Both the position numbers and the translations under genes were made by a program. A stretch of DNA of 64,000 nucleotides from Candidatus Nitrospira allomarina (lineage in GTDB: Bacteria; Nitrospirota; Nitrospiria; Nitrospirales; UBA8639), in NCBI RefSeq assembly GCF_032050975.1, contig NZ_CP116967.1, positions 3,035,001 through 3,099,000 on the forward strand, read 5' to 3'. Position 1 is the first letter of the stretch, and each line of letters opens with the position of its first letter. The notes under the pieces were generated by a model that was given only the letters and a program-made list of their open reading frames with translations, made no database searches and was not told the origin of the DNA. Positions 27,824 to 41,436 of the stretch are shown piece after piece.

Positions 27824-27955
27824 AAAAAGAGAGTGAATTTCGTAATCCTATTTCTTGAAATTCCTGGAAGTCAAGAATGGGGGATGAGAAATGGCTGATA
27901 GGCCTTGAGAAGTTGACCGTGAGTTGGGATGTTTTTGAATGATGAGGGGGTAAGA

Positions 27956-30900
27956 ATGAGCACATTAGAAGCGGCTTTAGAATCTCGAATCCTTGTGCTA
28001 GATGGAGCCATGGGTACCATGATTCAGGCCCATAATCTGAGTGAAGGGGATTTTCGCGGGACGCGTTTCCTGGACCATGCCTGTGATGTCAAAGGCAATA
28101 ATGATCTGCTAAGCCTGACGCAACCAAAAATTATTGAAGATATCCATGTGCAATACCTTCAGGTTGGCGCCGATATCATTGAAACGAATACCTTTAATTC
28201 CAATGCTATTTCTCTAGCCGATTATCAGATGGAGGCTTTGGCCTATGATTTAAATTTGGCAGGGGCCCAATTGGCTAAGCGTGCGGTGGCTCGGGTACAG
28301 GCAGAGAAACCTGGTCGGACGTGTTGGGTCGCCGGGGCCTTAGGCCCCACCAATCGAACTGCATCGATGTCGCCTGATGTAAATAATCCGGCATTTCGAG
28401 CGGTCACCTTCGATGACTTAGCTGCAGCGTATTATGATCAGGTTCGGGGATTGGTGGAAGGTGGCGTCGACCTTCTTCTGGTCGAAACCATTTTTGATAC
28501 GTTGAATGCGAAGGCCGCTTTTTATGCTATTGCTCAGTATAGCGAAGAAGTGCACCGCCAATTCCCAATTATGGCGTCGGTCACGATTACGGATCTCAGT
28601 GGCCGGACGTTATCAGGGCAACTGATCGAGGCGTTTTGGAATTCTATTTCTCATGCCAATCTTTTGAGTGTGGGGATAAATTGCGCGTTAGGGGCCAAAC
28701 AAATGCGCCCTTATATTGAAGAGCTTTCTAAAGTGGCGCCCGTCTATATCAGTTGTTATCCCAATGCGGGATTGCCTAATGCCTTTGGCGGGTTCGATGA
28801 GACGCCAGAGCGAATGGGCGGAGACCTTCGCGATTTTGCCAGCCAAGGCTGGGTCAATATTGTGGGTGGGTGCTGCGGAAGTACGCCAGAGCATATTCGA
28901 GCGATTGCGGGAGGGGTCAAAGATTATGCTCCGCACAAAAAAACACATGTTCCGCGTCTCACCCGGTTGAGCGGATTTGAACCACTGACTATTCGGCCAG
29001 AAGGAAATTTTGTCAATATTGGTGAACGGACCAATGTAACGGGTTCACCGAAATTTTCAAAATTGATTCTCAACGGGAATCTTGAGGAAGCCTTGGCTGT
29101 GGCGCGCCAGCAAGTCGAAGGAGGTGCGCAAATCATCGATGTGAATATGGATGAAGGGCTCTTGGATTCCCAGAAAGCCATGGTTGAGTTTTTAAATCTG
29201 ATCGGATCCGAGCCGGATATTGCCCGTGTTCCCATTATGATTGATAGCTCAAAGTGGTCGGTCATTGAGGCGGGACTCAAGTGTATTCAAGGTAAGGGTG
29301 TTGTCAATTCCATTAGTCTCAAGGAAGGCGAGGACCAATTCCTGGAGCAGGCTCGGAAGATTCGTCGCTTTGGTGCTGCCGTGGTGGTTATGGCATTCGA
29401 CGAAACAGGTCAAGCAGATACGCTTGACCGAAAAGTGGAGATCTGTACGAGGGCCTATCGTCTTCTGACCGAGAAGCTGAACTTTCCGCCGGAGGACATT
29501 ATTTTTGATCCCAACATTTTGACTGTTGCAACTGGCATGGAGGAACACAATGCCTATGCCGTGAATTACATTGAGGCCACGAGACAAATCAAAGCCACGT
29601 TGCCTTTCTGTAAAGTCAGTGGTGGAGTCAGCAATATTTCCTTTTCCTTCCGAGGGAATAATACGGTTCGCGAAGCTATACATTCCGCGTTTCTTTACCA
29701 TGCTATCAAGGCGGGGATGGACATGGGAATTGTGAATGCCGGCCAATTGGGAGTTTATGAAGAAATTCCCAAAGATCTCCTCAAATTAGTAGAGGATGTC
29801 TTGTTGAATCGGCGGCCGGAAGCTACTGAGGAATTGGTTACCTTCGCGGAGACGGTCAAACAACAGGGCAAAGCAACTGTAATTGATGATGAGTGGCGCC
29901 AGGGCACGGTAGAAGAACGTCTCTCGCATGCGTTGGTGAAGGGACTTGTCGAATTCATTGATGCCGATGTGGAGGAAGCCCGTCAGAAATACCCTAAGCC
30001 TCTGGATGTCATTGAGGGGCCTTTAATGGATGGGATGAATGTGATCGGGGAGTTGTTTGGCGCGGGAAAAATGTTTTTGCCTCAGGTGGTCAAAAGCGCG
30101 CGAGTCATGAAAAAAGCTGTGGCGTATTTGTTGCCGTTTATGGATGCGGAAAAGGTTGAAGGTGAGAGTCGAAGCCAGGGTAAGATCCTGCTCGCGACAG
30201 TAAAGGGCGACGTGCATGACATTGGAAAAAACATCGTCGGTGTGGTGCTAGCCTGCAATAACTATGAAGTTCTCGATCTGGGTGTGATGGTTTCCTGTGA
30301 CAAAATATTGCAAACCGCTCGCCAAGAAAATGTGGATCTGATTGGCCTTAGTGGACTGATTACTCCTTCCTTGGATGAAATGGTTCATAATGCACGAGAA
30401 ATGAGTCGAGAAGGCTTCTCTATCCCTCTGCTAATTGGCGGAGCCACCACCAGCAAGGCCCATACCGCGGTGAAGATTGCGCCCGGGTATACCAGCCCAG
30501 TCGTGCATGTATTAGATGCGTCCTTAGCGGTTAATGTCGTACGCAAGTTAATGAGCCCTGATGATAAAAACGCTTTTGTGCAGGATGTGCAGGCGAAACA
30601 ACAGAAAACGCGGGAAGCCTATCTAGCCAAGACAACGGCCAAAAAATTTGTATCATTGGAAGAAGCGAGAAAGCAGCCCTTCGACATTCATTGGGAGACG
30701 GCGTCCATTGCCAAGCCTAGTGTTCTTGGTTGCAAAGTTCTTGAGGATGTGACACTTGAAACGCTTGTTCCCCTAATTGACTGGTCCCCCTTTTTCCACG
30801 CATGGCAATTGCGCGGGAAATTTCCGAAAATTTTTGAAGACCCCGTGGTTGGGCCAAAGGCCAAAGAACTCTTTGACGACGCTCAAAAGCTCTTGCAAGA

Positions 30901-31627
30901 AATCATTGACCGAAAATTGCTTACGGCCAAAGGTGTCTATGGATTGTTCCCAGCCAATAGTCAGGGCGATGACATTATCATCTACAAAGATGAGACGCGT
31001 TCGGAGCGTGTTTCAGTCTTTCATACTTTGCGCCAGCAAATAGAAAAGCCTCGAGGGGATTTTTATTATGCATTGGCTGATTTTGTGGCCCCGCAGTCCA
31101 GCGGAAAAGCGGACTATATCGGTGGTTTTGCCGTCACGGCCGGCCTTGGTATCGAAGCCCTCTGTCAGCGGTTTGAACAGGATCATGATGATTATAACGC
31201 TATTATGGCTAAGTCTTTGGCCGATCGATTAGCCGAGGCCTTTGCCGAATGGCTCCACCGTGAAGTGCGGCAGGAATGGGGATTTGGCCAAGATGAGCAA
31301 TTGACCAACGAGGAGCTCATTCAAGAAAAGTATCGTGGAATTCGTCCCGCGCCGGGGTATCCGGCCTGTCCGGACCATACTGAGAAACAGCATTTGTTTG
31401 AGTTGTTGCAGGTTGAGAAAGCCGTAGGTATTCAGCTGACCGAATCCTATGCCATGTATCCGGCTGCGTCAGTCAGTGGTTTCTATTTTTCGCATCCCCA
31501 AGCCAAATACTTTTCCGTTGGAAAAGTGCAGCAGGATCAAATCCAAGATTATGCCAAGCGGAAAGGGATGGATGTCTCGGTGATGGAACGCTGGCTTTCC
31601 CCAAACTTGTCCTATGACCCTACTTGA
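27956..31627 (+). CDS. metH: Cobalamin-dependent methionine synthase MetH
   Basis: A 1223-residue protein with all four MetH modules. The homocysteine/zinc domain has [11 protein letters not shown] and likely zinc ligands Cys 243 (VGINCALG) and Cys 306-307 ([11 protein letters not shown]). The pterin/methyltetrahydrofolate domain contains [16 protein letters not shown]. The B12 domain carries [12 protein letters not shown] with axial His 754 and [13 protein letters not shown]. The C-terminal SAM-dependent reactivation domain has [17 protein letters not shown] and [15 protein letters not shown]. It methylates homocysteine from methyltetrahydrofolate through methylcobalamin. I choose ATG 27956 over an upstream start because GAGGGGG lies six bases before it. 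No cobalamin or SAM riboswitch is recognisable in the short upstream gap. B12 use also fits the radical SAM genes downstream. Confidence 0.97.
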
Positions 31628-33094: not shown

Positions 33095-34990
33095 ATGAGG
33101 ATAAATTATGATAAAGGTGGGTTGATTCGCCCCTCTAAGATTCAATTACCAAGAGCGACTGATTTCAAAGAGTCAACCAACAAGTCCAAGATCCTGTTGG
33201 TCTTTCCCCCAGACTGGTACCCCTCAGAACCCTATCTAAGCCTTCCGACCTTAACGGCTTTTCTTCGATCTGCCGGCCATGACGTAGTCCAAAAAGATGT
33301 CAATCTAGAAATGTACGACTGGTATTTTAGCCGGGACTTCCTCCGTCGCATTCTAAAAAAAGTTCCCCAGCAACTTGATCGTCTCAAAAAGATTAGAAAG
33401 AGTCGTGAGTTAACGGATGAGGAAGTGGATCTTCAGTTAGCTCTCTGCAATTGTACCCGAGGCTACATCAGCGATTTAGCGGAAAGAGCCGAGAAAGCAA
33501 AGGAAATTGTTCGAAGCCAAGAGTTTTACGAGAGTGACAAGCTGGAATGGGTGATGAACACATTCAGGGAAGTGACGGCCACGATATCCTTGGTGTATGC
33601 CCCGGCAAGAATCTGCATGCCTCCAATGGAAACCGATTTATCCTATAAACTGTTTATGTCGTCTGAAGTGCTTGAGGCCGTTGAAGATACCCAAGTCAAT
33701 ATTTATCGGGATGTGTTTGAGGAAATTCTGAAGCCGGCCATTCTGGCCGAAAAGCCTGACGTCATTGGGATTTCAATTGTTCTTCGCCAGCAATTGTTTT
33801 CTTCTATGACATTTTGTGCACTCATTAAGGAGCAATTTCCCGAAATTCATGTGACCATCGGAGGCAATACTGTCACCCGCCTGAGGGAAGTGCTTCCAGA
33901 TATCCCAAATCTCTTCGCATTATTTGATAGCGCGATCGTCTATGAAGGTGAAACTGCCCTGTTGCGATTAGTGGAAGCCATAGGCTCGAATGGGGATTTA
34001 TCACATGTACCTAATTTACTATTCAGAGATGCAGCGGGGATTCATGTAAATTCCGAATCCTACGCCGAAAATATGGGCGAGTTACCTCCTCCAGATTTCG
34101 ACGGATTGCCATTAGAGAAATACTTTGTACCCGAGCCGATTCTTCCCTACTTAGCCACTCGTGGATGTTACTGGGGGCGGTGTGAGTTCTGTGATCATGG
34201 TGAGGGCTATACAGCAGGGTATCGGACCAAAAGGGATTGGCAGATTATTGAAGAACTCACCTATTTAAAAAATAAATATCAGGCCCGACATTTTCATTTT
34301 ACCGATGAGTCATATCCCCCTGCCTTATTTCGAAAACTCACCAAAAAATTGATTGAGTCAAATTTAGATATTGCCTGGACCACACATATCCGTTTCGAAA
34401 AGAGTCTTCTTGAGGACCAAGTTTGGGCGGATGCCAGGACATCGGGATGTAAATTCCTTCATATGGGCTATGAATCCGGAAGTGAGCGGGTGCTTCAACT
34501 CATGGATAAGGCGACCACGACGGAGGTGATTCAGCGAAGCTTGGAGTTGTCCTCCAAACACGGGGTTTGGAATCATGTCATGGGATTTTTTGGATTCCCT
34601 GGTGAAACTTACCAAGAGGCCAAATTCTCTATTCAATTTTTAGAAGATAATCGGGAACACGTCCATTCGATTGGATTTGGGACATTTGATTTGAGCAAAC
34701 ATACCCCCGTCGCGAAGAATCCTGAAAAATTTGGCATCACCTATTATAAAAACCCGGAATGGGATTTGGCCTTGGATTACTATTTTACGGTAAAAGAGGG
34801 GTTGAGTATTGAGGATGCCGAACGGGTATTCGAGGAATTTGAGCAAAATCATTATGCTGGGTGGGATTTGAAAATTTTCGTGCGGGAGTATGTGTTTTTA
34901 TACGTGGCCCACTTCGGGACCAATAAGTTACCTTCGCTGCAATTTCGGCTCGACTCGCACGATTCTTCAACGAAATTAGCCTCTGTCTAA
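33095..34990 (+). CDS. B12-binding-domain radical SAM protein, copy 1
   Basis: A 631-residue protein. The N-terminal part begins KSKILLVFPPDWYPSEPYLSLPTL (about residues 30-55), followed by a helical insertion of roughly 130 residues, then a B12-binding-type Rossmann region (KPDVIGISIVLRQQLFSSMTF, HVTIGGNTVTRL). The radical SAM barrel holds Cys 358, 363 and 366 in RGCYWGRCEFCDHG, a C-X4-C-X2-C spacing. Further barrel blocks are FHFTDESYPP, IRFEKSLLED, GYESGSERVLQLMDKA and GFFGFPGETYQEA. Such enzymes use a [4Fe-4S] cluster, SAM and usually cobalamin for methylation, ring or rearrangement chemistry. No DxHxxG motif is present, as usual for this class. GGGTG lies seven bases before the ATG. A paralogue follows 19 bases later. 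Substrate unknown. Confidence 0.9.
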   Translation: MRINYDKGGLIRPSKIQLPRATDFKESTNKSKILLVFPPDWYPSEPYLSLPTLTAFLRSAGHDVVQKDVNLEMYDWYFSRDFLRRILKKVPQQLDRLKKIRKSRELTDEEVDLQLALCNCTRGYISDLAERAEKAKEIVRSQEFYESDKLEWVMNTFREVTATISLVYAPARICMPPMETDLSYKLFMSSEVLEAVEDTQVNIYRDVFEEILKPAILAEKPDVIGISIVLRQQLFSSMTFCALIKEQFPEIHVTIGGNTVTRLREVLPDIPNLFALFDSAIVYEGETALLRLVEAIGSNGDLSHVPNLLFRDAAGIHVNSESYAENMGELPPPDFDGLPLEKYFVPEPILPYLATRGCYWGRCEFCDHGEGYTAGYRTKRDWQIIEELTYLKNKYQARHFHFTDESYPPALFRKLTKKLIESNLDIAWTTHIRFEKSLLEDQVWADARTSGCKFLHMGYESGSERVLQLMDKATTTEVIQRSLELSSKHGVWNHVMGFFGFPGETYQEAKFSIQFLEDNREHVHSIGFGTFDLSKHTPVAKNPEKFGITYYKNPEWDLALDYYFTVKEGLSIEDAERVFEEFEQNHYAGWDLKIFVREYVFLYVAHFGTNKLPSLQFRLDSHDSSTKLASV

Positions 34991-35009
34991 TGTCAGGAGC
35001 GTTGACCCT

Positions 35010-36977
35010 ATGACTGATACCTTAATTGAAATCGAGCGTGGTGGTTCGACCGATAAATTCAGACGGACGTTTAAAACGATGTTGCTCTTTCCTCCGGAAT
35101 GGGTTCCTACCGCTCCATACCTTGCTTTACCCAGTCTGACCGCCGTACTTCGGTCCTATGGCCATGAGGTTGTACAGAAAGATGTCAACATTGAAATGTA
35201 CGACTGGTTTTTCAGTGATACCTTTTTAATCTGGGTAAAGCTTCGAATGGATCAGCAGCGGCGAGGTTTGAAGGAACGAAAGGCCCGCAATGAATTGACC
35301 GATTTGGAACGAGACCGACTGGCTTGTTTGACATCGCAAGATGCGATAGATGTCATGGAATTGGCTGAACGAGCTACGGAGGCCAAAGCCATTGTGCGAG
35401 GCGAGTCATTTTATGATGCAGGAAAACTGGAATGGGCCTTACAAACATTCCGCGATGTTATGCAGTTTATTTCTGCCGCCTATTTCCCCGCTTCCCTTGT
35501 ATTCTATCCCATGGAAAGTAATTTGGGGTATCGCTCGGGAGTTTCGACTGAAGTATTGGCATGCCTGGATGACGATCTTGTTAACGTGTATCGGGATGTG
35601 TGCCGTCAGTTAGTGCTGCCTGCTATTCAGAGAGAACAACCGGAAGTGATAGGAGTTTCCGTCGGAACCCAAATGCAACTTCTGGCGGGTATGACCTTTT
35701 GCAAAATGATTAAAGAGGAATTTCCTGATATTCATGTGACCGTGGGTGGCAATGTGATTACCCGGTTAAAAGATGATCTCCCAAAACGGAAGCAATTTTT
35801 CACACAAGTCTTTGATTCGGCCATATTGTACGAAGGTGAACATGCGTTGGTTTGGTTGTTGGAAGCGCTGGCGGGTGAACGTGACTGGGGCAAGGTCCCT
35901 AACTTGATGTGGCATCAAGGGGGGGAGGTTCGTGTGAACGATGAAATATATACCGAAAAGACGACGGCCTTGCCTCTTCCGGATTTTGAGGGGTTACCCT
36001 TGGATGCCTATTTTGTCCCGGTTCGAATTTTACCTTACTTGGCCACTCGAGGGTGTTACTGGGGACGTTGTACCTTTTGTGATCATGGGCAGGGATATTT
36101 CGATCAGTACCGTGGAAAGCCCGCGCATGATGTAGTCCGAGAAATCAAAGCCTTGAAGGAGAAATACAAGGCAGAGCACTTTTTATTTTCAGATGAATCC
36201 TATCCTCCCGCCTTATTGAAAAAGGTTTCGCAATTGCTGATTGAGGAGCAGGTGGGGATAAAATGGACGACCTTAATCCGGTTTGAAGAGTCATTGCAGG
36301 ATCCCGAAATATGGAAACAAGCCGTTCAAGCTGGCTGTTGCACGCTGTATTATGGGATGGAATCGGCAAATGAGCGTGTTTTGGAGCTCATGGATAAGCA
36401 TGCGAAAAAGGCTGTGATTGAAAATAATCTACGGGAGGCCGCCAAAGCCGGGATCTGGAATCATGTAATGGCTTTTTATGGATTTCCAGGTGAAACTCGG
36501 GAAGAAGCCGAGGAGACACGGGAATTTCTCCTTGAAAATAAACGGTATATTCATTCGGTGGAATTATTCTATTTTGTGGCCTACCGGCATACACCAATGG
36601 TTCGGAATCCTGATAAGTTTGGTATCACCATTCATAAGCAGGAAGAGTATGATATGCCTCTCGATTACTATTACACGTTGAAAGAACCTGGTGGAATCAC
36701 TTGTTTGGAGGCGATGCAATTGGCAGAGGAGTTTTATCAGAAAGACTTTGAGCCATGGGCTGTTAGAGTCAATGCCCGGGAACATGTATTCCTCTATATT
36801 TCCAAATTTGGTACGAATTACCTGCCCCAGATCTATGCGATGAAAGCCGGGCAGGATGAACCACGAACTGATGGGGTGCAAGGTTTGATTACCTGGCCTG
36901 TGGCTAATGCGCCTTCCGAGAAAAATTCAAAAGGTGAGTCAGGAATGTCCCGTGTGGTTAGTCATGCTGCTCCGTGA
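35010..36977 (+). CDS. B12-binding-domain radical SAM protein, copy 2
   Basis: A 655-residue paralogue of the preceding gene with the same layout: MLLFPPEWVPTAPYLALPSLTAVL, the helical insertion, a B12-binding-type segment (QPEVIGVSVGTQMQLLAGMTF, HVTVGGNVITRL), and a radical SAM barrel with Cys 349, 354 and 357 in RGCYWGRCTFCDHG (again C-X4-C-X2-C). FLFSDESYPPALLKK, YYGMESANERVLELMDKHAKK and AFYGFPGETREEAEETRE follow. The two proteins align along their whole length but are well diverged, so this is an old tandem duplication rather than a recent one, and they probably act on different positions or substrates or form a heterodimer (inference). AGGAG lies 11 bases before the start. Its 3' end overlaps the opposite-strand J-like gene by 20 bases. 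Confidence 0.9.
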   Translation: MTDTLIEIERGGSTDKFRRTFKTMLLFPPEWVPTAPYLALPSLTAVLRSYGHEVVQKDVNIEMYDWFFSDTFLIWVKLRMDQQRRGLKERKARNELTDLERDRLACLTSQDAIDVMELAERATEAKAIVRGESFYDAGKLEWALQTFRDVMQFISAAYFPASLVFYPMESNLGYRSGVSTEVLACLDDDLVNVYRDVCRQLVLPAIQREQPEVIGVSVGTQMQLLAGMTFCKMIKEEFPDIHVTVGGNVITRLKDDLPKRKQFFTQVFDSAILYEGEHALVWLLEALAGERDWGKVPNLMWHQGGEVRVNDEIYTEKTTALPLPDFEGLPLDAYFVPVRILPYLATRGCYWGRCTFCDHGQGYFDQYRGKPAHDVVREIKALKEKYKAEHFLFSDESYPPALLKKVSQLLIEEQVGIKWTTLIRFEESLQDPEIWKQAVQAGCCTLYYGMESANERVLELMDKHAKKAVIENNLREAAKAGIWNHVMAFYGFPGETREEAEETREFLLENKRYIHSVELFYFVAYRHTPMVRNPDKFGITIHKQEEYDMPLDYYYTLKEPGGITCLEAMQLAEEFYQKDFEPWAVRVNAREHVFLYISKFGTNYLPQIYAMKAGQDEPRTDGVQGLITWPVANAPSEKNSKGESGMSRVVSHAAP

Positions 36978-37251
36978 TCATCCTGTTGTCGAGAGGACGG
37001 CTATTCTGCAGATGATTGGATAGAATTTGATAGGCTGCATGGATTTCCTTAGTTTTGGCCTCTCCCTTTTTATACATTTCCATATACTTCGCTGGATTAT
37101 TGGTGAGGCCTGCGTAACGTGATGGATACCAGACTCGCCTGGCTTCCTCATATCGTTGCTGTAAGGCATCAGGCGAGAATGGCTCTGTTAGATTTAGGAG
37201 CAGCAGTGCCCGTTCGACGGTCATCGAGTTTGGGTCGCTTGAGGAAATCAT
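36958..37251 (-). CDS. J-domain-like protein with altered HPD motif
   Basis: A small protein of about 97 residues from the ATG at 37249-37251; a TTG at 37314 and an ATG at 37224 are alternatives. The pattern MTVERALLLLNLTEPFSPDALQQRYEEARRVWYPSRYAG... EAKTKEIHAAYQILSNHL follows a DnaJ J domain: helix I, helix II, loop, helix III with the conserved AYxxL. The HPD tripeptide needed to activate DnaK is replaced by YPS (WYPSRYA instead of WHPDR), so this is best called a J-like domain, probably unable to stimulate Hsp70. It may serve as a scaffold for the neighbouring enzymes. It is transcribed against them, and its stop lies inside the end of the upstream radical SAM gene. Confidence 0.6.
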   Translation of the reverse strand: MISSSDPNSMTVERALLLLNLTEPFSPDALQQRYEEARRVWYPSRYAGLTNNPAKYMEMYKKGEAKTKEIHAAYQILSNHLQNSRPLDNRMITEQHD

Positions 37252-37385
37252 GAATTTTTCATCAGAAGGTTTTATGCTGCTCAGCAGCCTGATTGATATG
37301 CTCAAGTGTTTCAAAAGAACAGTGATACTGTCAATTGGATTTCTGATTTAACCACAGCCAGTCTTTTTCTTAGAAATTTTTGACG

Positions 37386-38624
37386 ATGCTCCGTGAACTT
37401 CCCATACTAGAAGCTCCAAAGTTATTTGGCAGTCAGGATTACCGCGATGTGTTGATGCGGGAAATGGATGCAGGGAAAATTCCGTTAAGCCTAGGGAAAG
37501 AATGTCCCGTCAAATGTGCATTTTGTTATGAATTAGACCATTCCTACCGGGAAACGCTGGATCCACCAAAAACCTCCCAGGAAGACTGGGAGTTTATGTT
37601 GAATTATATTAACTCCAAGCCAACAGATCCTCTTCAGTTCTGGTGCCTGGGCGGTAATGAATTCATGGAATGGACCGATTTGTTTCTTCATCCAAAAGCC
37701 ATGGAATGGATCGAAGATTTTTTGAAATTTACCGATAAAAGCATTCAATTTTTCACGGTTGGTTTTGTCCATGTTCCCAAGATTCATCGGTTGGTCGAGC
37801 AATATCCCGGGAGAATAAATTTTGAGTTATCCGTCATTACCCTTGGGGAGTATAGACAAAAACTGATGCCGCATGCTCCATCGGTTAAACATCTGATGAA
37901 GGTCCTGGATGGCCCTGCAGTTTCCTCTGCAAATTTTTATGCCTTTGATGAAAACACGATGTCTGCAGATGCGAAAACGATTTCTCGAATCAATTCTCGG
38001 TGTGTATTGTGGATGGGATGTTTGACGCCGGTGGGCGGAATTCAAGAGGCAACAAGTCGGGTGATGAGGCAAGGTCGAAAATATCTTGCTGTTGAGGCGG
38101 AAAAGATATACGATGCCGGCCTTCCAAATTTTACGACCATTCATACTGAAGCCTATGTGACGGCTTTTTTGAACCGAAAGAGAATTCTCAGTCTATTTGA
38201 TTCTTTGGAATTAGAAAAACGGGATTCGGTTGTCATGGCGGGAAGTGTGTATCGGATATTGTCTATGTTCAGGAAAAATCGAGCAAGGTTTCTCCATGTG
38301 CCGAATGCCACCCTTGGAGGAGATTCTGATTGTACGGTGCTGTTGACGTTGAATGACATTGCCAAACGGCTGACAAAAGAAAAATTTATTTATGTTCCCC
38401 AATGTATTGTGGAGTCTGGCAGAGGTCCGAATCGCGATATTGCCGGGGTTCATGTTGACGACTTTGTAAATAAGACCGGAGTGAAGGTGAGAATTTTGCC
38501 AAAAATTAGCACGAAGTTTGCCAATAATCGATTGTATCGAAATGGGTCACTACAAAATTACGTGGAGGATTATGTGCGTAATTCCATGGCACGTTCTTAT
38601 GAAGCGACCCCATTAATAGCCTAA
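37386..38624 (+). CDS. Radical SAM protein without B12 domain
   Basis: A 412-residue protein with a classic C-X3-C-X2-C cluster motif (KECPVKCAFCYE, Cys 40, 44 and 47) close to the N-terminus. Barrel-like segments follow: PLQFWCLGGNEFMEWTD, INFELSVITLGEYRQKL, CLTPVGGIQEATSR. The C-terminal part, with FLHVPNATLGGDSDCTVLLT and GPNRDIAGVHVDDFVNKTG, resembles the C-terminal regions of NifB/MoaA-related and DUF512-type FeS oxidoreductases, but I cannot place it firmly. It is unlike the two upstream B12-type enzymes, yet it follows on the same strand with only the J-like gene between. The ATG at 37386 is chosen over TTG 37380; no strong ribosome site. Substrate and product unknown. Confidence 0.75.
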   Translation: MLRELPILEAPKLFGSQDYRDVLMREMDAGKIPLSLGKECPVKCAFCYELDHSYRETLDPPKTSQEDWEFMLNYINSKPTDPLQFWCLGGNEFMEWTDLFLHPKAMEWIEDFLKFTDKSIQFFTVGFVHVPKIHRLVEQYPGRINFELSVITLGEYRQKLMPHAPSVKHLMKVLDGPAVSSANFYAFDENTMSADAKTISRINSRCVLWMGCLTPVGGIQEATSRVMRQGRKYLAVEAEKIYDAGLPNFTTIHTEAYVTAFLNRKRILSLFDSLELEKRDSVVMAGSVYRILSMFRKNRARFLHVPNATLGGDSDCTVLLTLNDIAKRLTKEKFIYVPQCIVESGRGPNRDIAGVHVDDFVNKTGVKVRILPKISTKFANNRLYRNGSLQNYVEDYVRNSMARSYEATPLIA

Positions 38625-38686
38625 GTTGATGGGAAGGTAGGTGATCCAGAACTACTGAACCAATCAAGTTTTTGGAGTTTATATTG

Positions 38687-38899
38687 GTGAAAAGATTTAG
38701 AGGATTGTTCCTTTTTTTGTTATTAGTGGGTGCTATAGGCTGTTCCGGAAATTTGGAAAGCCAAGAGACATTCAGTCAACAAAAAAATGAAAACGATTCG
38801 TTAATGTGTGAAAAAATCACTGATGGAAGAATGGGGGGTAGAGGAGTTCCTGGCTGGCAAAGAGCTTATGAGGAATGCATGGTTACGGGAGGTCAGTAA
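38687..38899 (+). CDS. Small predicted lipoprotein
   Basis: A 70-residue protein starting at GTG 38687, nine bases after GGAG. The signal peptide KRFRGLFLFLLLVGAIGC ends in a lipobox (GAIGC), so Cys 18 would carry the lipid. The mature part is only about 50 residues: a polar segment with two Cys (MCEKITDG, YEECMVTGG) and a Gly/Arg-rich MGGRGVPGW. I do not recognise it. It follows the third radical SAM gene by about 60 bases on the same strand and could belong to that transcription unit. Confidence 0.55.
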   Translation: MKRFRGLFLFLLLVGAIGCSGNLESQETFSQQKNENDSLMCEKITDGRMGGRGVPGWQRAYEECMVTGGQ

Positions 38900-38996
38900 A
38901 ATTCCCCTTTATAGATGAAATACCTTCTATGGTTTTGTGATTTTGAGATGCGCCTAACATATTTTTAATCCCACCTGAAATGTTTTCTTGTTGATT

Positions 38997-39929
38997 ATGA
39001 ATTCTTCTAAAAACTGGCTTCAATTTTATCAGGTTGATGTATTTACAAGTGAGCCGTTTGGCGGCAATCCTTTGGCAGTATTTCCGTCCCCAGGAGAGCT
39101 TAGCGAGCGGGAGTTTCAGCAAATTGCGCGTGAAATGAATTTGTCTGAAACGGTGTTTGTACTCCCGCCCACCGATCCCAAGGCTGCGGCCAAGGTGAGA
39201 ATCTTTACCCCTCTTCAAGAAATTCCGTTTGCCGGCCATCCCATTTTGGGAACATTTTATGTGCTTGGGACACTGAAGCATCTTGCCTTGCAGGAGCCCG
39301 TGACGAAAGTTTTTTATGAATGTACCCTGGGCCTGTATGCGCTTGACCTTATTGTCCTGAAGGGACAAATTGAACAGGTCATTATGTCGCAACCCTCTCC
39401 ACAATTTATAGATGTCATCTCACAGGCAGAAGCCATTTATGATATTGCCAGGGCTTTGGGAATTCACAGATCGCTCATTGCCGATACCCTTTTCCCTGTT
39501 GAATTGGTATCAACAGGATTGCCGGTACTAATTGTGCCCATTCGGAGCCTGACAGCGGCAAAATCCATGGAAGTTGATCATTCTGAAGTTTTAGAGATTT
39601 GTGCTCGATTTGGGGCTAATGGAATTATGATCTTTACAACGATGACAGTGGAGGAAAGCGCCACTGTTCATACGAGAATGTTTGCCGATCCCATTGGTAT
39701 TTCGGAGGACCCTGCAACAGGCAGCGCAAGTGGCGCCCTGGGTGCCTATTTAGTCAAGAATGGAGTCGTTGAAGTTGGTCCGACTACTGAGGTGGTTATG
39801 GAACAAGGATATGAAATTGACCGGCCGTCACGCATTTTGGTGCAGATTTTTTCTGATGATGATGTGATTAAAGAAATTAAAGTGGGAGGTCAGGTGGTAA
39901 TGGTGGCTGAAGGAAAGATGGTCTATTAG
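38997..39929 (+). CDS. PhzF-family isomerase/epimerase-like protein
   Basis: A 310-residue member of the PhzF (phenazine biosynthesis-like, diaminopimelate-epimerase-fold) family. Family hallmarks are VDVFTSEPFGGNPLAVF, MNLSETVFVLPP with the catalytic Glu, IFTPLQEIPFAGHPILGT, and ISEDPATGSASGALGAYLV. Family members isomerise or epimerise small acids, and no phenazine genes are present. The ATG at 38997 is chosen because homologues start shortly before FYQVDVF; an upstream TTG pair is less likely. It may belong to the small-molecule pathway suggested by the radical SAM genes upstream, but the 100-base gap leaves this open. It converges on moaB. Confidence 0.85.
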   Translation: MNSSKNWLQFYQVDVFTSEPFGGNPLAVFPSPGELSEREFQQIAREMNLSETVFVLPPTDPKAAAKVRIFTPLQEIPFAGHPILGTFYVLGTLKHLALQEPVTKVFYECTLGLYALDLIVLKGQIEQVIMSQPSPQFIDVISQAEAIYDIARALGIHRSLIADTLFPVELVSTGLPVLIVPIRSLTAAKSMEVDHSEVLEICARFGANGIMIFTTMTVEESATVHTRMFADPIGISEDPATGSASGALGAYLVKNGVVEVGPTTEVVMEQGYEIDRPSRILVQIFSDDDVIKEIKVGGQVVMVAEGKMVY

Positions 39930-40013: not shown

Positions 40014-40571
40014 CTATTTGGCGAGTTCTCCAGCTATATGCCCCATCTCAGGTAGAATAAGTTTCTCCATTGCCAGGCGAACGGCCCCCTGAGACCCAGG
40101 AATAGAAAATACCACCAATTTCCCGTAGGTTCCTGCGGTGGCCCGACTTAACATGGCAGACGATCCAATATCTTGATAGCTCAAATACCGAAAAAGCTCT
40201 CCAAATCCATCAAGTCGTTTTTCCAATAAATCATCAACGGCTTCAAATGTGGAGTCTCGCCGGGAAATACCTGTCCCGCCATTGATAATAATGACCTGAA
40301 GCGCCTCTTGACCGCTGGCTTGGAGGAGCATGCCTTTGATATCAGCCGGTTCATCTTTAATGATTCGGTACTCTGAGATGGAGTGTCCCTGCTCTTCTAA
40401 AAGATGGCAGATTAGCTTTCCACTGGTATCGGAATCTGGCGATCGGGTATCACTACATGTGAGCACCATGCAGACCAAAAATGATGACCTCTGTGCTTTG
40501 TGTGTGAGATGAGACGGTTGAGATTGGTCGGTATGTAATCCATGTTCTTTATGATGTTGATGTTCATCCAT
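40014..40571 (-). CDS. moaB: MoaB/Mog-family molybdenum cofactor protein with His-rich N-terminus
   Basis: A 185-residue protein. The core (from about residue 30) is MoaB/MogA-like: MVLTCSDTRSPDSDTSG, IINGGTGISRRDSTFEAV, FRYLSYQDIGSSAMLSRATAG, and VVFSIPGSQGAVRLAMEKLILPE. These proteins adenylylate molybdopterin for molybdenum insertion, although the role of MoaB itself varies by species. The first 25 residues are rich in His (MDEHQHHKEHGLHTDQ), a likely metal-binding tag not usual for the family. It is first in a minus-strand series with the ferredoxin and GGCT-like genes only 30-60 bases apart (the ferredoxin is upstream). A molybdenum enzyme, such as the nitrite oxidoreductase of Nitrospira, would need this pathway (inference). 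Confidence 0.88.
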   Translation of the reverse strand: MDEHQHHKEHGLHTDQSQPSHLTHKAQRSSFLVCMVLTCSDTRSPDSDTSGKLICHLLEEQGHSISEYRIIKDEPADIKGMLLQASGQEALQVIIINGGTGISRRDSTFEAVDDLLEKRLDGFGELFRYLSYQDIGSSAMLSRATAGTYGKLVVFSIPGSQGAVRLAMEKLILPEMGHIAGELAK

Positions 40572-40600
40572 GCTTTACCCATATAGGAAAAACCTGACTA

Positions 40601-40927
40601 TTAAGACCAAACGGAATCCGGTTTGAGCTGGGCCGCAGGCTCTCCTTTTTTTATGTGCTCATCCAAAATTACCGCCACATCGGAGTCTTTAACTTGAGAG
40701 TACCAGGTTCCTGTCGGATAGACGACAACGTTAGGGCCACTTTCGCAGGGCCCGAGGCAAGTTGTCCCAGTGACTAGTACCTCGCCAGGTTGGACGCCAC
40801 GTTCAATCAAGCCCATATTGAGTGCCATCAATAAATTTTGAGCACCCGCAGCTCCACAAGAAGGCTTGGGGTGACCAGGAGGACGGGAATTCGTGCATAC
40901 CAGAATATGATACTTCGGTTTTGGCAT
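40601..40927 (-). CDS. Thioredoxin-like [2Fe-2S] ferredoxin
   Basis: A 108-residue protein of the thioredoxin-fold ferredoxin family (NuoE/Shethna-like). Cysteines that can hold the cluster are in VCTNSRPPGHPKPSCG and TTCLGPCESGPNVVVYPTG, the usual two pairs, followed by the conserved TWYSQVKDSD. It acts as a soluble electron carrier in the cytoplasm. AAGGAG lies six bases before the start codon at 40925-40927. It is encoded just before moaB on the same strand (29-base gap), so the two are probably co-expressed. Confidence 0.88.
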   Translation of the reverse strand: MPKPKYHILVCTNSRPPGHPKPSCGAAGAQNLLMALNMGLIERGVQPGEVLVTGTTCLGPCESGPNVVVYPTGTWYSQVKDSDVAVILDEHIKKGEPAAQLKPDSVWS

Positions 40928-40992
40928 AAATACTCCTTCTCAACGAATAGGTGAAAGAGAGAAAAATTCAATCGAAAAAATGAACGAAAGGC

Positions 40993-41436
40993 TCATTGAG
41001 AGCGAAACAGATTCCACATGTCCACGCATTCATCCGGTAACTTCCAATGCTTAACTCCCGCAAGAATCCAATCTAAATAATGATCTTTGGCTTTAAATTT
41101 TCCAATGCTTTGGGCTACGTGCGTGCTTACGAACTCTTTTTCTCCTTCCTGAGTGAACACATGGACCTCAACATGACGAAATGCTCCCTCTGGAAGATCG
41201 CCCTCGAATTTGTCCATTTCTTGGACATCCTCCTGGGTGAGCTCAAAAACACCTCCCCACACTCGCTCACCAGCAGAAGGGGCAATGGTGGCTAATCCAC
41301 AACGCCATTGGTTGGACCACCGCCCGAATTTGATGGTGTGGTCTGGGACGTATGCCATAAATAAAAATTGTGCTTCAGGAGCACGTCGTTTGAGCTGTGT
41401 GGGATTCAAATTGTCCGCATAAATAAAAAATCGCAT
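40993..41436 (-). CDS. Gamma-glutamylcyclotransferase-like protein
   Basis: A 147-residue protein of the GGCT/AIG2-like fold. The start MRFFIYADNLNPTQLKRRAPEA matches the YxxNLxP substrate loop of the family, and VWGGVFELTQEDVQEMDKFEG carries the likely catalytic Glu and the typical DxFEG. Members release 5-oxoproline from gamma-glutamyl peptides, but many bacterial forms have no proven substrate. AGGA precedes the ATG at about nine bases. It lies upstream of the ferredoxin and moaB genes on the same strand and may start that unit. Confidence 0.8.
   Translation of the reverse strand: MRFFIYADNLNPTQLKRRAPEAQFLFMAYVPDHTIKFGRWSNQWRCGLATIAPSAGERVWGGVFELTQEDVQEMDKFEGDLPEGAFRHVEVHVFTQEGEKEFVSTHVAQSIGKFKAKDHYLDWILAGVKHWKLPDECVDMWNLFRSQ

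Follow-up and report, generated by a model that had tools for sequence, protein, structure and literature searches.

The window, a stretch of 64,000 nucleotides analysed as a whole, comes from a Nitrospirales genome of 4.55 Mb in one contig. It raises the question of what a tandem pair of cobalamin-type radical SAM proteins, here named rS1 and rS2, may act upon together with the genes kept beside them. A large share of global nitrite oxidation is due to Nitrospirales, and for many genes diagnostic of this way of life no function is known. Our best explanation, which we put forward tentatively and at somewhat less than even confidence, is a B12-dependent radical methylation module for nitrite oxidation that would act on an NXR-system protein or peptide. 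The analysis identifies three or four B12-dependent radical enzymes that are kept across the group and stand near NXR genes by gene order.

Architecture and relatives of the tandem pair

The genes of rS1 (33095..34990, forward strand, 631 residues) and rS2 (35010..36977, forward strand, 655 residues) encode paralogues with 49% identity across 603 residues. In both proteins an N-terminal B12-binding domain of the Rossmann type is followed by a radical SAM domain. PF04055 (radical SAM) scored 48 bits in rS1 and 69 bits in rS2; PF02310 (B12-binding) scored 33.1 bits in rS1 against a cut-off of 32.1, and slightly below it, at 28.8 bits, in rS2. Alignment of 37 orthologues and paralogues revealed that the FPP-W-P--PYL-LP motif at the N-terminal start and the cluster cysteines are invariant, the three-cysteine motif of the [4Fe-4S] cluster being CX4CX2C in rS1 and rS2 compared with the usual spacing CX3CX2C. 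The AlphaFold2 model of rS2 (input of 37 sequences, pLDDT 71.7, pTM 0.77) places a helical insertion at about residues 59-157. By Foldseek the model matches TsrM, OxsB, MgmA, CysS and TokK with E values of 5e-13 to 7e-10, and AprD4 was also matched. Identity, domains and model thus bear out the layout of motif, helical insertion, B12 fold and radical SAM barrel given in the preliminary description. Domains, motif, cluster cysteines and model matches together point to the architecture of cobalamin-dependent radical SAM enzymes, with predicted cobalamin binding and SAM cleavage; that the locus enzymes belong to this class we regard as very likely.

The closest relative of the pair in the host genome is a third protein, rS4 (L090:10166-11938), which is about 33% identical to rS1/rS2. 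In the tree rS1, rS2 and rS4 each form one supported clade. A further host-genome relative, rS5 (L091:7803-10007, 734 aa), is about 50% identical to radical SAM proteins of Bacteroidota plasmids (Aureibacter, Parabacteroides); its setting is unrelated, and the plasmid homologues revealed no common context.

The top NCBIfam models for rS1, rS2 and rS4 were the PhpK P-methyltransferases (TIGR04479) and the RiPP C-methyltransferases (TIGR03975). Membership of PhpK was rejected at 120.8 and 132.8 bits against a cut-off of 600, with a differing genetic setting. The known NCBIfam equivalogs all scored far under their cut-offs for the three proteins, in agreement with the earlier proposal of a dedicated, long-kept set outside the curated families. 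The second-best model, TIGR03975, brings in a RiPP system in which rS1, rS2 and rS3, the third radical SAM protein of the locus, would modify a short exported precursor peptide. Three tandem homologues of rS1/rS2/rS4, distant at 28-30% identity, do occur in another Nitrospirota class (L108:593-16705, genome G259) together with TolC-, HlyD- and ABC-transporter-like genes and an NHLP-like precursor with a GG site, apparently a RiPP cluster. However, rS1 and rS2 score only 120.2 and 109.2 bits against the TIGR03975 cut-off of 281.85, the genetic setting differs, no short ORF near the locus is conserved between families, and no conserved peptidase, transporter or precursor accompanies it. Therefore, membership of TIGR03975 was rejected, and we consider a RiPP system very improbable.

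A conserved locus and the absence of rS3 in comammox genomes

A small J-like gene (36958..37314, reverse strand) lies between rS2 and rS3, convergent with rS2 and overlapping its end, just where an opposite-strand J-like gene had first been noticed. Its DnaJ match is weak (E 0.005 here, 3.7e-4 for the orthologue in family f2). The HPD motif is missing, the corresponding residues being WYPSR here and WTPRR or WNPAR in Nitrospira, while f2 keeps WHPHRY. The gene occupies the equivalent position in both families compared, and its product reads as a degenerate J-protein.

The third radical SAM gene, rS3 (37380..38624, forward strand), is almost without database signal, the single sequence scoring 11.4 bits against the DUF512 Pfam cut-off of 25. 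Among 31 aligned orthologues, a weak DUF512 match was found in 23 (best E 0.013). Comparison of the rS3 profile with an alignment of canonical DUF512 proteins (15 sequences of the same phylum) yielded an hhalign probability of 96.4% (E 1.2e-9, 289 columns), whereas the control profile pairs, rS3 versus rS1/rS2 and rS1/rS2 versus DUF512, gave about 1%. A radical SAM domain is thus followed by a region homologous to DUF512, the domain with which Mmp10-like enzymes bind cobalamin at their C-terminal end (PMC11659888). No relatives of solved structure were found for rS3 by sequence, and its AlphaFold2 model (pLDDT 53) was too poor for use of the fold. Similar to the Mmp10/DUF512 proteins (PF04459), rS3 combines a radical SAM domain with a DUF512-type half and a CX3CX2C motif, but it is devoid of the N-terminal PDZ domain and stays below the Pfam cut-off. 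We predict from the profile comparison that rS3 is a cobalamin-dependent enzyme of the DUF512/Mmp10 type. It is hence of another type than the pair, as first stated, but it also looks cobalamin-dependent. Elsewhere in the phylum most families have a strong match to the canonical PDZ-DUF512 radical SAM protein, but Nitrospirales match it only weakly (E 1e-5 to 4e-3) or not at all; rS3 may be its divergent replacement.

Downstream stands a gene for a PhzF-family isomerase-like protein (38988..39929, forward strand), which scored 243.9 bits with TIGR00654 (cut-off 76.2) and 217.3 bits with PF02567 (cut-off 27). It is a conserved neighbour in families f1 and f3; in f2 it adjoins moaB-like genes. 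The lipoprotein-like ORF before it (38672..38899, forward strand) also exists, but has recognisable relatives in six near kin only and was rejected as a member of the locus; of the two followers first reported, PhzF alone belongs to the conserved set. Beyond PhzF, MoaB/MogA-like, 2Fe-2S ferredoxin-like and GGCT-like genes (40014..41436, reverse strand), named by reading, are conserved in order, and in f2 they flank PhzF alone; their membership is uncertain. In the host genus the locus is preceded upstream by a gene read as metH, for a cobalamin-type methionine synthase (27929-31627). No cobalamin riboswitch, other riboswitch or other RNA was detected in positions 20000-46000 of the window.

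Many of the genomes compared are drafts. The order rS1-rS2-J(opposite strand)-rS3-PhzF is kept in 35/35 rS3 loci of two families as far as the contigs reach, and the neighbourhood that had been anticipated for these genes is therefore found in relatives. The spacing from J to PhzF is consistent in all 53 loci read that have both genes, either with rS3 or with its clean absence. Orthologues of rS1 stand at the equivalent site in two families and next to rS2 and J in a third. Proteins of the rS2 family are encoded in 143 of the 147 Nitrospirales genomes and are absent only from four genomes of family f4, which also have no NxrC. Across 296 genomes of the phylum, two genomes outside the order gave matches at E<=1e-50, and none outside it gave rS3. 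Thus the set rS1-rS2-J-PhzF, usually with rS3, is an undescribed locus of nearly all nitrite-oxidising Nitrospirales; no curated family or paper covering the whole gene set was found.

In f2, rS3 and PhzF are located away from the pair. This family is probably NS-4, the deepest branch according to PMC12342949. Therefore, if f2 is indeed deepest, the arrangement in the window looks assembled from separate loci. PhzF is absent together with rS1/rS2 from G114, G128, G133 and G135 (drafts 89-95% complete). A joint loss was considered and set aside, since linkage of the genes and draft gaps could explain the absence. The contig of G130 ends at J.

The rS3 gene was found in 92 of the 147 Nitrospirales genomes and amoA (PF02461) in 32, with rS3 in none of the amoA-positive ones; these counts are of genomes and not of independent events, and judged by the rS2 tree, comammox genomes may have lost rS3 in one to three events. 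Where both genes share one contig, J and PhzF are 62-250 bp apart in the amoA-positive genomes, of which 26 were measured, compared with 1.3-3.5 kb in the presence of rS3. Comammox loci whose contig spans the site are otherwise intact and cleanly lack rS3. Seven more genomes in which amoA was undetected are also without rS3; because the rS2 tree puts them inside the comammox clade, their amoA may be unassembled. In G034, G037 and G039 (f1 genus g5), where amoA was undetected, rS3 has been lost independently.

According to PMC12342949 each comammox clade corresponds to a genus that also has non-comammox members, and following this statement we take the comammox clades to be g12 and g19. A quick rS2 tree joins the comammox members of g12 to those of g19 and not to their congeners (99% SH-aLRT), and g12 as a single clade was rejected (p-AU 0.0013; G077 and G098, of unresolved placement, were left out). 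Therefore, the rS3-less version of the locus may have passed from one of the comammox clades A and B to the other.

Gene order around nitrite oxidation genes

The setting as first described missed two associations, that of rS4 with the nxrC operon and that of the pair with nxrA in the deepest family. The neighbours of rS4 are an EB_dh-domain NxrC gene, a TorD-type chaperone and TatA (all three by Pfam), a ferredoxin and multihaem cytochromes. The NxrC gene lies 0.2-0.5 kb from rS4 in 34/34 genomes having rS4, and full reading of seven further genomes showed the rS4-nxrC cluster to be kept. Both genes are absent from 4/4 f4 genomes and from ten outgroup genomes; two outgroup genomes carry distant homologues only. 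The genes around rS4 agree with the description in PMC12342949 of the NXR-associated cluster NITMOv2_3614-3631, which comprises nxrC and torD together with pentahaem cytochromes and unknown proteins, but the main text of that paper is silent on radical SAM proteins, and the locus in the window lies outside that cluster. High expression was reported for nxrC_2 (NITMOv2_3624) and torD (NITMOv2_3625) (PMC6606698). In the host genome the TorD-type chaperone by nxrC (L090:13262-14234) is split into two overlapping frames, compared with one frame in relatives (L111-L117), which reads as a frameshift or a sequence error.

In an f2 contig (L119), nxrA is followed by u618, a 539-aa metallo-beta-lactamase-like protein, J and then rS2-rS1, which are convergent; the nxrA product is related to Kuenenia NXR-A. 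The second f2 genome (G049) shows the arrangement in pieces, with the start of nxrA, u618, the metallo-beta-lactamase-like gene and J near the end of one contig (L217) and rS2 at the edge of another (L193). In G065 the block of u618, metallo-beta-lactamase-like gene and J is followed by a different gene. In G053, G065 and some drafts rS1/rS2 were not found, though NXR genes are present, which counts against our best explanation. The 539-aa protein (L211:10530-12149, L119:6728-8347) adjoins J and nxrA only in f2. It is full-length in 16 of 21 NXR-type genomes tested and partial in two more, and occurs in none of the f4 or outgroup genomes. A PqqD-like stretch suspected in it by eye was unsupported by Pfam.

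Because rS4 belongs to the nxrC-torD-tatA cluster, and because in the deepest NXR family the pair stands near nxrA, we propose that the set would be part of the nitrite-oxidation equipment of Nitrospirales. The link consists of gene order and co-occurrence inside one order and may be confounded by common descent. The set could then be an old lineage-specific enzyme set that has only ancestry and order-wide distribution in common with NXR. In keeping with this, the co-occurrence rests on one clade contrast, f4 against the rest, where f4 would be UBA2166, the only family of the order without NXR according to PMC12342949; the locus is not beside nxr genes in f1 and f3, and adjacency to nxrA is direct in one contig only. 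The constant adjacency of rS4 to nxrC and the position of J and the pair in the nxrA neighbourhood of f2 genomes argue against so loose a relation, which we consider quite unlikely, and a functional tie to nitrite oxidation is somewhat favoured. No paper tying radical SAM, NXR and Nitrospira together was found in the literature consulted.

Proposed reaction and candidate substrates

Among relatives of these enzymes, methylation falls on unactivated carbons, or on phosphorus, in substrates that are small molecules, peptides or proteins. By analogy with the family, the locus enzymes are likely to be methylases, and rS1/rS2 most likely sp3-carbon methylases. In such a reaction SAM would methylate Cob(I)alamin, a second SAM would give rise to the 5'-deoxyadenosyl radical which takes a hydrogen from the substrate, and methylcobalamin would then donate its methyl group. 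The rS3 protein, as a cobalamin radical SAM enzyme of a different kind, would add an optional further modification.

The enzymes would most likely act on an NXR-system protein or peptide while it is still in the cytoplasm, ahead of its export, and the J-like protein may present it in a chaperone role. We favour a protein or peptide target because rS4 stands among protein-maturation genes and because of the kinship of rS2 with MgmA and of rS3 with Mmp10. MgmA (9ccb, TIGR04014) shares the cobalamin radical SAM fold and is the nearest or second-nearest solved sequence to rS2 (E 1.6e-9 by sequence, 2.2e-7 by profile and 3.4e-11 by Foldseek). It is the glutamine C-methyltransferase of methyl-coenzyme M reductase, a key enzyme of energy metabolism, and Mmp10, a protein arginine methylase, modifies the same enzyme. 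However, the score with TIGR04014 is 56 bits against a cut-off of 360, and MgmA is without the long helical insertion and acts in methane-cycling archaea.

The conserved PhzF neighbour points away from a protein target and suggests a small molecule. The set could make a modified small molecule or lipid, such as a cofactor, a quinone, or a hopanoid-type or signalling compound, for use by nitrite oxidisers, with PhzF isomerising an intermediate that the radical SAM enzymes methylate or rearrange. TsrM, OxsB, TokK and CysS, which are similar in fold, act on small molecules, and HpnJ, BchE, BzaD and ladderane-lipid models, all matched weakly, fit such a product. In the other direction, rS4 keeps company with protein-maturation genes, the conserved locus includes neither carrier, ligase nor transporter, nor any further biosynthetic gene, and PhzF does not adjoin the pair in f2. 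We regard a small-molecule product as a serious possibility, although on balance doubtful.

Two further points weigh against an NXR-system substrate for the pair: with no more than about 33% identity between them, rS1/rS2 and rS4 may differ in substrate, and the rS1-rS2 locus is far from the nxr genes in most genomes. The structure paper on Kuenenia NXR reports no modification of NXR. A fuller version of the NXR-system proposal, speculative and on the whole rather unlikely, is that NXR or an assembly partner would carry radical B12-dependent carbon modifications introduced by rS4, by rS1/rS2 and, in canonical nitrite oxidisers only, by rS3, in parallel with the active site of methyl-coenzyme M reductase; comammox organisms would have dropped the rS3-dependent one. 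The absence of rS3 from 32/32 comammox genomes and its presence in most canonical relatives offer a natural comparison for the substrate.
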